Shown here: piece by piece, positions 10,221 through 28,214 of the stretch
Layout: each line of letters opens with the position of its first letter
How positions within the stretch are numbered: the stretch's first letter is position 1
IMG/VR virus record: IMGVR_UViG_3300050343_000022
Coordinates: 1-36,338 of that record
From: a virus
Strand: one strand, 5' to 3'
Length of the DNA: 36,338 bases
Notes under the pieces: generated by a model
What the model was told of the DNA's origin: nothing
The model's database searches: none
Seen by the model: the letters and a program-made list of their open reading frames with translations, nothing else
Position numbers and translations under genes: made by a program

Positions 10221-10409
10221 ATGGATAAAAGAATTATATATCCCACAGATGACGGAGGAGTTGCAGTCATAGTGCCTGCTCCTAATTGTGGATTAACAAT
10301 AGAACAGATAGCAGAGAAGGATGTACCTGCTGGCAAGGAATATCAGATTGTAGATGTAATTGACATTCCTGGTGATAGAACTTTTAGAAATGCTTGGGAG
10401 TATTCATAA
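10221..10409 (+). CDS. Conserved 62-aa fibre-cluster protein
   Basis: The protein opens MDKRIIYPTDDGGVAVIVP and ends GDRTFRNAWEYS, a pattern I recall from many phages in a pair with a small helical protein like the next gene. It is probably a fibre-assembly chaperone or a structural accessory; the function is unproven. AAGGAG is a strong ribosome-binding site. Its stop overlaps the next start (TAATG). Confidence 0.7.
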   Translation: MDKRIIYPTDDGGVAVIVPAPNCGLTIEQIAEKDVPAGKEYQIVDVIDIPGDRTFRNAWEYS

Positions 10410-25908: not shown

Positions 25909-26176
25909 GTTCAGTCTCCAAGTCCTCATTAGTCATGACAACTAATGCTGCGTACCCACCTATGTCATGCCATGAATCATTGAGATAGTAGTTACCGTTA
26001 AGTATCCTAGCCATCTTGTTAGCAATCATGTCCAGGCTTTCTCTCATATAAGTAGGCATAGCCTTATAATTAGGAGAGTCTTTGATTATTGACTTTATGT
26101 TTTGAGAGATGTCACTCACAACACGGTACTGTCCGTACTGTCCTTCTCTTGTTGATAATGTCTCATTAATTTCCAT
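25886..26176 (-). CDS. DUF6378-like protein
   Basis: This 96-aa protein carries a TREGQYGQY start, RESLDMIANKMARILNG in the middle, and SWHDIGGYAALV near residue 67. This motif set matches what I remember as the DUF6378 family, common beside phage replication and nucleotide-metabolism genes and possibly related to nucleotide-modifying enzymes. AAGGAA precedes its ATG. It overlaps the phosphoesterase gene upstream by 11 bases. Confidence 0.72.
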   Translation of the reverse strand: MEINETLSTREGQYGQYRVVSDISQNIKSIIKDSPNYKAMPTYMRESLDMIANKMARILNGNYYLNDSWHDIGGYAALVVMTNEDLETERDNTDAC

Positions 26177-26930
26177 ATTGTTTCCTTAAATAGTTAATTG
26201 ATACTGGCATCTCGTCAAAGCTACCATCGTTTACTTCGTTAAGCATCCAGATACCAGACCAGCTACCGTTAGTCTGAGGAGTTAGATAGTCCTCGTCATG
26301 TTGATAGTAGATACCAGCAAAGATACCAGTGATACCCTTACCATCTGCTTTCTTACTGAAAGAGATAGCTCTGTCTTGTACGTGTCCCATGATACAACTC
26401 ATGTGTTTCTTTTGCAAGAGTAAACCAGGATTACTAACAGGTCTACCCATCACGCCAGACGTAAAGTAATGGCTGTATGCGATACCGTTAATGACAGGAA
26501 CAGAAAGAAAATCACGGACCTCCCAGTTGTATTTCTTTAGATTAAAATCACTGTAACCAATCAACCCTTCTAGTTTTCTATCAGACTCGATAGCTCTCTC
26601 GATACGTTGCTCGTGATTACCAATAAGAAATATCTTCTTGGGTTTCCATACTCTCTTTTTGTTTTCTCTCTGTCTTTTCTGTTCTTCAATGATAGGTTTC
26701 ATTAAAGCATCCATAGCCTTATTACCTGCTTGAATGTCATCATTGTAAGTTCTACCTTCAAAAGACTTTTTACCTACGTCATAGACACTCAGGCTTGGCA
26801 TATCCCAATGATCTCCTAAATGAACAATGACATCAGGCTTAGTCTTGACAGCATATTTCCCGGCCCACTCTAAATGATTATAAGGGTTTCCCGGTTTACA
26901 TTGCGTGTCAGGAATTATCAAGTGTCGCAT
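26166..26930 (-). CDS. Calcineurin-like metallophosphoesterase
   Basis: This 254-aa protein has the metal-binding motifs of the family in order: PDTQ (residues 7-10, in place of DxH), HLGDHWD near 38, IGNHEQR near 103, a SHY near 153, and GHVQ near 183 in place of GHxH. The two variant metal sites are typical of phage members. The substrate is unknown; phosphodiesters or nucleotides released from host DNA are possible. AAAGGA lies 5 bases before the ATG, which overlaps the end of the nuclease gene upstream by 23 bases. Confidence 0.85.
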   Translation of the reverse strand: MRHLIIPDTQCKPGNPYNHLEWAGKYAVKTKPDVIVHLGDHWDMPSLSVYDVGKKSFEGRTYNDDIQAGNKAMDALMKPIIEEQKRQRENKKRVWKPKKIFLIGNHEQRIERAIESDRKLEGLIGYSDFNLKKYNWEVRDFLSVPVINGIAYSHYFTSGVMGRPVSNPGLLLQKKHMSCIMGHVQDRAISFSKKADGKGITGIFAGIYYQHDEDYLTPQTNGSWSGIWMLNEVNDGSFDEMPVSINYLRKQYGN

Positions 26931-27267
26931 TGGTTCCTTTCAATAAAGTAACAAAGTATTCTGCATCAATAACAGCAAGAGGTTTAGAGTGATTCTGTTT
27001 GACAATGACTGTCGGTTGTCTACCCTCAGGACAGTTGTCAGCAGCTTGAGAATAGAAAGCATAAACAGCCATCGACTCTCTGGACTTACACTCTACAGAT
27101 ATACCTAACTGATCCCCTACTTCTTGAGAGAACAGTATGTCCTCACCTCCAGCACCCATGCTAGTTGATCTTACATCGGCCCTGGAAAACGAGAATTGTT
27201 CAATAAGTTGATCTCTGAACCACTGTTGTAATTTTCTGCCTTTGGCTTTTGCACTTTGGGTTTTGAT
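26908..27267 (-). CDS. PD-(D/E)XK nuclease-like protein with ATC start
   Basis: Read from ATC at 27267 this is a 119-aa protein: (I/M)KTQSAKAKGRKLQQWFRDQ, then SRADVRSTSMGAGGEDILFS and SVECKSRE. GGED plus ECK fit the metal site of PD-(D/E)XK resolvase-type enzymes, probably processing recombination or replication junctions. A perfect TAAGGAG (27280-27274) lies 6 bases before the ATC. Between the upstream in-frame TAA and the internal ATG at 27159 there is no ATG, GTG or TTG. Starting at 27159 would lose the conserved N-terminal part. So either ATC initiates, or the start codon has been mutated. It overlaps the gene before it by 97 bases. Confidence 0.72.
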   Translation of the reverse strand: MKTQSAKAKGRKLQQWFRDQLIEQFSFSRADVRSTSMGAGGEDILFSQEVGDQLGISVECKSRESMAVYAFYSQAADNCPEGRQPTVIVKQNHSKPLAVIDAEYFVTLLKGTNATLDNS

Positions 27268-27557
27268 GGTTTTCTCCTTAAATCTAAAAACTTATCTAGT
27301 CTTACTTTTTTAATACTCTTAATCCATTGTTTTGGTATGTGTATCCTGGAGTTAGACTGATCATGAGAGATAACAGCCGCAAGGCAAATAGCATCTTCTG
27401 TCTCGTCAACAATAAACCCTATACTAAGACAAGGATGTACATCTACTTTTACTTCTGTTTCCCAACCACTATCAGACACAGCATCAACCCATTGGACATA
27501 ACCTATTGTGAAATGTTTGGCGGTTTCCATAATTGCTTCTCTTTTCTTCTTATCCAT
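27171..27557 (-). CDS. 128-aa protein, function unknown
   Basis: The protein begins MDKKKREAIMETAKHFTIGYVQWVD; a compact beta-rich domain covers residues about 10-90, and a Lys/Pro/Asn-rich tail (from about 92) follows. That tail is read from the DNA that also encodes the nuclease N-terminus in another frame, which explains its low complexity. GGAAGG upstream supports the ATG at 27557, inside the exonuclease gene's last 55 bases; an alternative ATG is at 27530. No family is recognised. Confidence 0.7.
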   Translation of the reverse strand: MDKKKREAIMETAKHFTIGYVQWVDAVSDSGWETEVKVDVHPCLSIGFIVDETEDAICLAAVISHDQSNSRIHIPKQWIKSIKKVRLDKFLDLRRKPSKPKVQKPKAENYNSGSEINLLNNSRFPGPM

Positions 27558-28201
27558 AACAACCTTCCACGTTCAGTTAGTTTATCAATATCTCCTTCAT
27601 ACTTTTCTAACACGGCTTCAAAAAGCTGTCGCTCACCTATACAATCTTTAAGTATCTTTTCTGCTTTCTTAGGTCCAATACCTTTAAGTCCAGGAATATT
27701 ATCAACACGATCACCGGTTAGTATCTGCATGTAAAAGTTTTTTATAGCTTCTTCTTCTGTGACATGATAAAGATCTTGCTTTACGAAGTTATAATGCCAT
27801 CCTCTAATCATATCTAAGTCTTTATCAATAGACATGATGCAGCTTTTGTTTTCAGGTAGAGCATAAGCCGCAATACCTATAGCATCATCTGCTTCTTGTC
27901 CTTCAATTAACTCGAAACACCATTTGCTCATGAGATAAGAGCGAAGTGTATCGTAATGTATAGGTCTTCTAACACCTTTACGATTAGCTTTATACTCTTG
28001 CTCAGTAGCTATGTCTTGTCTATAGTTAGACTTCCCTGTAATGAATCCAGTATATGAATCTATATCGTCCAGTTCTAACAAGTTCTGAACAAAATTACCC
28101 ATACGTGCTATGGCGAACTTTTCATCTTCCGGATCATTAACAGAGAAGCCTACCCGATAAACAAGTATGTCTCCGTCAATGAGGGCTTTTGCCTTATTCA
28201 T
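27503..28201 (-). CDS. 5'-3' exonuclease (FEN-like, T7 gp6 role)
   Basis: This protein (232 aa from ATG 28201; a TTG at 28213 would add four) is a flap/5' exonuclease that removes RNA primers and degrades host DNA for precursors. Motifs: ALIDGDILVYR at the start, GQEADDAIGIAAY near 95, SIDKDLDMI near 118, TGDRVDNIPGLKGIGPKKAE near 160, the last containing the helix-hairpin-helix. All key Asp residues are visible. It follows the SSB gene closely on the leftward operon. Confidence 0.88.
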   Translation of the reverse strand: MNKAKALIDGDILVYRVGFSVNDPEDEKFAIARMGNFVQNLLELDDIDSYTGFITGKSNYRQDIATEQEYKANRKGVRRPIHYDTLRSYLMSKWCFELIEGQEADDAIGIAAYALPENKSCIMSIDKDLDMIRGWHYNFVKQDLYHVTEEEAIKNFYMQILTGDRVDNIPGLKGIGPKKAEKILKDCIGERQLFEAVLEKYEGDIDKLTERGRLLWIRRKEKQLWKPPNISQ

Positions 28202-28214
28202 TGACTTAGACAAG

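Follow-up and report, generated by a model that had tools for sequence, protein, structure and literature searches.

A conserved AUC/AUU start codon in a phage nuclease gene and its likely cause, an overlapping reading frame

Organisation of the nuclease locus

The window, that is the whole analysed stretch of 36,338 nucleotides of a marine phage (IMG/VR virus record IMGVR_UViG_3300050343_000022), contains on its minus strand a gene for a PD-(D/E)XK nuclease and, running across the nuclease start, a second gene designated here gene A (Table 1). The nuclease frame is closed upstream by a TAA (27294-27292, minus strand), which is followed by eight codons (VFRFKEKT) and then by ATC at 27267-27265; from this ATC the translation reads KTQSAKAKGRKLQQW...SRADVRSTS, with the first ATG 36 codons later (27159-27157) and the stop codon at 26910-26908. 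Six bases (AAAACC) separate the AAGGAG at 27279-27274 from the ATC. The original prediction had the ATC opening the nuclease frame 6 nt past AAGGAG, with no ATG, GTG or TTG in that frame from the preceding stop codon to the internal ATG at 27159; both statements were confirmed in the window, and the second proved true of all 70 non-redundant relatives as well. Folds of four loci showed no unusual RNA structure around the nuclease start.

Table 1. Features of the nuclease locus, with positions in the window
Feature	Position	Strand	Remarks
5'-3' exonuclease gene	27503..28213	-	phrog_107, E 2.8e-58; upstream of gene A
Gene A, 128 aa, no assigned function	27171..27557	-	missing from two lineages of relatives, conserved in the others
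Gene A C-terminal tail, 31 codons + stop	27171..27266	-	overlaps nuclease codons 1-32
AAGGAG Shine-Dalgarno sequence	27274..27279	-	GGA at -10..-8 in 70/70 relatives
ATC start codon of the nuclease	27265..27267	-	ATC/ATT in 99/99 distinct relatives with intact gene A
Nuclease gene, PD-(D/E)XK	26908..27267	-	119 codons + stop; phrog_244, archaeal Hjc-like fold
First in-frame ATG of the nuclease (Met37), unlikely start	27157..27159	-	9/19 family-invariant residues upstream
Metallophosphoesterase gene	26166..26930	-	phrog_221, E 3.1e-48; overlaps nuclease 3' end

The nuclease matches the PHROG profile phrog_244, RusA-like Holliday junction resolvase (E 6.8e-16, residues 3-112). Its AF2 model has a mean pLDDT of 89, with about 95 in the helix of residues 6-25, and the closest PDB structure is the archaeal Hjc 1gef (VIA Z 8.3, residues 6-105; 92 residues, rmsd 3.4), the Foldseek E-value of the model against Hjc being just 0.013. 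The residues G41, D43, E59, C60 and K61, invariant in the nuclease family, correspond to the D...ExK motif (GGED, ECK), and 9 of the 19 invariant residues in a 48-sequence alignment precede Met37. Profile, motif and model place the protein among the PD-(D/E)XK members of phrog_244 as a RusA-like/Hjc-like nuclease, with Holliday-junction cleavage as the predicted activity. Its neighbours encode a family-A polymerase, the 5'-3' exonuclease, a primase-helicase, the metallophosphoesterase and a B12-type ribonucleotide reductase; the polymerase is nearest to that of Pelagibacter phage HTVC103P (51%).

Start codons among relatives

The relatives compared are metagenomic contigs from IMG/VR, and the counts cover the matches listed; the same query found no relative in the genome contig collection. 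In the first scan, the 78 readable IMG/VR loci carried 56 ATC and 22 ATT at the start codon and nothing else. Five scans yielded 284 non-redundant family members, of which 70 belong to the clade of the window, with ATC in 52 and ATT in 18. In each of the 214 other members an ATG, GTG or TTG occupies the same codon or precedes it by 1, 2 or 5 codons. The comparison of start codons in relatives, proposed along with the original prediction as a check, gave 77 ATC, 26 ATT and 2 ATG when later scans were included (at least 105 distinct sequences).

The Shine-Dalgarno sequence is kept together with the codon, since GGA occupies positions -10 to -8 in 70/70 relatives, at a spacing of 5-7 nt. Of the codons from -9 to +12, codon 0 alone is a near-cognate start in all 36 clusters, so that a near-cognate codon at Shine-Dalgarno distance is conserved across the relatives, in the manner of conserved AUH-type starts. 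On a nucleotide tree of the 70 sequences ATC and ATT were exchanged at least 11 times, and a change to ATA or ATG never occurred. The group without NTG has a single origin on the protein tree (support 100/100).

The phrog_244 nucleases of S-PM2, Syn1, HTVC008M and the Roseobacter CRP phages belong to the same protein family and have a homologous N-terminus (MKTQSAKAKGR), but start with ATG, GTG or TTG at the same codon or just upstream, with no gene A across the start. In Kyanoviridae homologues the ATG stands at exactly the same codon, while Roseobacter-type homologues have ATG or GTG two codons upstream, leaving an internal Ile, which indicates that the start codon of the family has moved more than once. 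The Roseobacter-type starts two codons upstream read MAI, VAI or MPI (contigs L082, L083 and L097-L176). As to a descent from the M-A-I layout of Roseobacter phages, the nearest tree branches are types with ATG at the same codon, at weak support. In Synechococcus phage DSL-LC02 (L087:1498-1851) the annotated resolvase begins at an internal codon, 1546, the homologous ATG being at 1498, and this annotation looks too short.

Selection upstream of the first ATG

The nuclease amino acids at codons 9-18 do not differ among the 38 clusters, and the synonymous diversity of codons 9-25 is 0.70, against 0.69 in the rest of the gene. Identical amino acids combined with normal synonymous diversity indicate that the nuclease frame is translated upstream of its first ATG. 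The protein-like character that the original prediction saw in this segment is borne out by the nine invariant residues and the confidently modelled first helix, both located there. Comparison of the relatives thus strongly supports translation from the ATC and an N-terminus that precedes the first ATG.

A further argument for the ATC/ATT start comes from its first base. This base of ATY falls on the third position of a gene A codon that varies, and nevertheless all 68 sequences have A there; in 36 of the 68 it is fourfold degenerate in gene A, and such sites elsewhere in gene A are A in 29% of cases.

Gene A and its overprinted tail

Read in the +1 frame, gene A crosses the start of the nuclease gene and has its own stop codon within it. 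It had no match in Pfam or PHROG, and tblastn gave none in the phage collection; its core is predicted to be beta-rich and its tail disordered. The original interpretation overlooked this overlap, while its other part, AUC translation of a nuclease whose N-terminus precedes the first ATG, is the one strongly supported above. The tail has exactly 31 codons and a fixed stop in every one of the 99 distinct relatives whose gene A is intact; outside the clade, the gene A frame of homologues closes at many differing places. A single-base frameshift in gene A of L065, which was counted apart, is probably an assembly error. The conserved stop of gene A lies 11 nt before the internal ATG of the nuclease (27157-27173, minus strand), and a short reinitiated product is conceivable.

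Within the overlap, synonymous diversity of the nuclease is as low as 0.17 for codons 1-8 and 26-31, compared with 0.69 for the other codons, and in two control clades the same codons show 0.78-0.88. These codons coincide with the KPKxQKxK and FPxxM-stop segments of the gene A tail; in the middle of the overlap synonymous diversity is not suppressed. Synonymous variation is thus suppressed in the overlap both against the rest of the gene and against overlap-free homologues, which is the pattern of dual coding, and its collapse at both ends of the tail indicates that the tail is under selection at both ends.

Stop-codon avoidance in the overlapping frame

Codon 2 of the nuclease is Lys, either AAA or AAG. 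Before a Lys codon, ATG, GTG, TTG or CTG creates TGA in the gene A frame and ATA creates TAA, whereas ATC is read there as TCA (Ser) and ATT as TTA (Leu). ATC and ATT are therefore the only table-11 starts that spare gene A, and they are the sole ones seen together with an intact gene A (ATC 74 and ATT 25 of the 99 distinct relatives, among the matches listed). The gene A frame would also be spared by an ATG placed two codons further upstream, the Roseobacter-type arrangement, but such an ATG would directly abut the Shine-Dalgarno sequence. The codon would accordingly be AUC/AUU because the same nucleotides encode the gene A tail in the +1 frame, selection on the tail barring AUG at the nuclease start. 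A genuine AUC/AUU start imposed by the overlapping gene A is the preferred reading of the sequence comparisons, with a probability of roughly three in four (0.77).

In terms of mechanism, AAGGAG would recruit ribosomes and the nuclease would initiate at AUC, or in some relatives at AUU, to yield the full-length protein of 119 residues, with the initiator tRNA placing fMet at AUC/AUU. What the codon lacks in strength may be made up by the conserved Shine-Dalgarno sequence together with the A-rich, unstructured stretch past the start. Low, IF3-sensitive nuclease synthesis would be an expected side effect, and is plausible as a consequence of such a start.

Lineages without gene A

When all 2.9 million IMG/VR contigs were scanned for any NTG preceding the codons for KTQSAKAKGRKLQQWFRD, two matched, L451 and L548. 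Both have an ATG start and lack gene A, the exonuclease stop lying 13 nt before the ATG; the ATG is at 10368 of the reverse complement in L451 (minus strand) and at 6691 in L548. On an outgroup-rooted tree the two nest among ATC/ATT lineages (support 99/90), which looks like a loss of gene A followed by a return to ATG.

In a second lineage (L073, L178-L181) gene A is cleanly absent and ATC is kept. The exonuclease stop of L073/L178 lies 10 nt before the ATC, and the Shine-Dalgarno sequence is GGGAGG or TAAGGAGG; ATC evidently works without any overlap. These contigs also fall among lineages bearing gene A on an unrooted exonuclease tree, so that gene A was probably lost here too. The exonuclease gene directly precedes the nuclease in relatives lacking gene A.

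Loss of gene A would thus lift the bar, one lineage having gone back to AUG and another still using AUC. With two A-loss lineages known, few independent events underlie the link between gene A and the start codon, and the ATC of L073/L178 after the loss suggests that the weak start may have reasons besides the overlap.

Alternative explanations

One such reason would be regulation. AUC/AUU might be kept mainly to hold the nuclease low or responsive to IF3, as with infC, pcnB and sigR, the overlap being incidental. The retention of ATC and a very strong Shine-Dalgarno sequence in L073/L178, though gene A is gone, fits this explanation, as do the conserved bacterial non-canonical starts with strong Shine-Dalgarno sequences that lower expression (PMC5472188, PMC13009471). 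However, it does not predict the ATG of L451/L548, which equally lack gene A; ATA, also weak, is never seen, and would make TAA in gene A; and overlap-free homologues use GTG and TTG. Restraint through IF3 is possible; the conservation of the start codon can be accounted for without it, and as its main cause such restraint appears improbable.

A fusion of gene A and the nuclease through a -1 frameshift at A AAA C just past the ATC, with AGGAG as a dnaX-type stimulator, is very unlikely. The nuclease frame is -1 relative to gene A, and both A AAA C and the upstream AGGAG/GGGAG are conserved, but the first base of ATY would then be silent for gene A and undecoded in the nuclease, yet it is invariably A (68/68). 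By inspection, the tandem slippery heptamer X XXY YYZ is absent, only single A AAR sites being present; moreover, relatives lacking gene A still carry the Shine-Dalgarno sequence and ATC, and homologues have ATG at exactly the position of the ATC.

Slightly less probable still is a start only at the internal ATG at 27159, an outcome that would have overturned the original prediction, with the upstream conservation due to gene A alone. Termination-reinitiation is conceivable, given the gene A stop fixed 11 nt before that ATG, but protein-level selection upstream argues against it: residues at codons 9-18 are invariant amid normal synonymous variation, the segment holds 9 of the 19 invariant residues and a helix of pLDDT 95, and a nuclease begun at Met37 would be missing the first Hjc-aligned helix. 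That the ATC is a sequencing error or a recent mutation of ATG was rejected, since 103 distinct ATC/ATT sequences from many metagenomes, with at least 11 ATC-ATT changes, contradict it and nothing was found in its support, leaving it a negligible probability.

Comparison with known non-AUG starts and implications

Conserved AUC/AUU starts are very rare in bacteria and phages, and the well-studied ones are explained by IF3 regulation. No paper on AUC/AUU starts in phages was found in the literature searched. The infC gene, encoding IF3, starts with AUU in E. coli, AUC in Streptomyces and AUA in S. aureus (PMC5472188, PMC13009471). Like the nuclease, it has a near-cognate AUH start conserved within lineages and placed behind a Shine-Dalgarno sequence; there the codon serves IF3 autoregulation, whereas the nuclease is a DNA-processing phage gene in which an overlapping frame excludes NTG. 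The GTC/GTT start of sigR in Streptomyces (PMC5472188) resembles that of the nuclease in its conservation, its exchange of C and T at the third base and its strong Shine-Dalgarno sequence. It is IF3-repressed and was tested by mutation, with no overlapping-frame explanation reported in the available part of that paper. Conserved non-canonical starts with strong Shine-Dalgarno motifs are likewise found in the Staphylococcus genes cvfC1 (AUU) and ccpN (AUA), expressed in S. aureus at about 10% of the AUG level in poor medium (PMC13009471). These are cellular genes with an extended Shine-Dalgarno sequence and initiation mapped by ribosome profiling, and the accessible text reports no overlap; the case of the nuclease is built on comparative sequence data.

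The relatives of the window point to another cause than IF3 regulation, namely stop-codon avoidance in an overlapping gene, and the lineages that lost the overlap, one of them back to ATG, form a built-in control. A scan of the window for other genes with non-NTG starts, which has low power inside overlaps and did not list the nuclease itself, returned antisense artefacts only. Gene callers that accept only ATG, GTG and TTG would miss or shorten the nuclease throughout its clade, and similar mis-calls may affect further genes with a +1-frame overlap.

Where codon 2 begins with A, NTG yields TGA and ATA yields TAA in the overlapping frame, so that only AUC and AUU remain. Overlap in the +1 frame could therefore be a general route to the evolution and persistence of non-AUG starts, a proposal for and against which the odds seem about even; the phage clade would then represent a natural case of constraint and release, in which the dose of the nuclease is perhaps also set by the initiation fidelity of the host.
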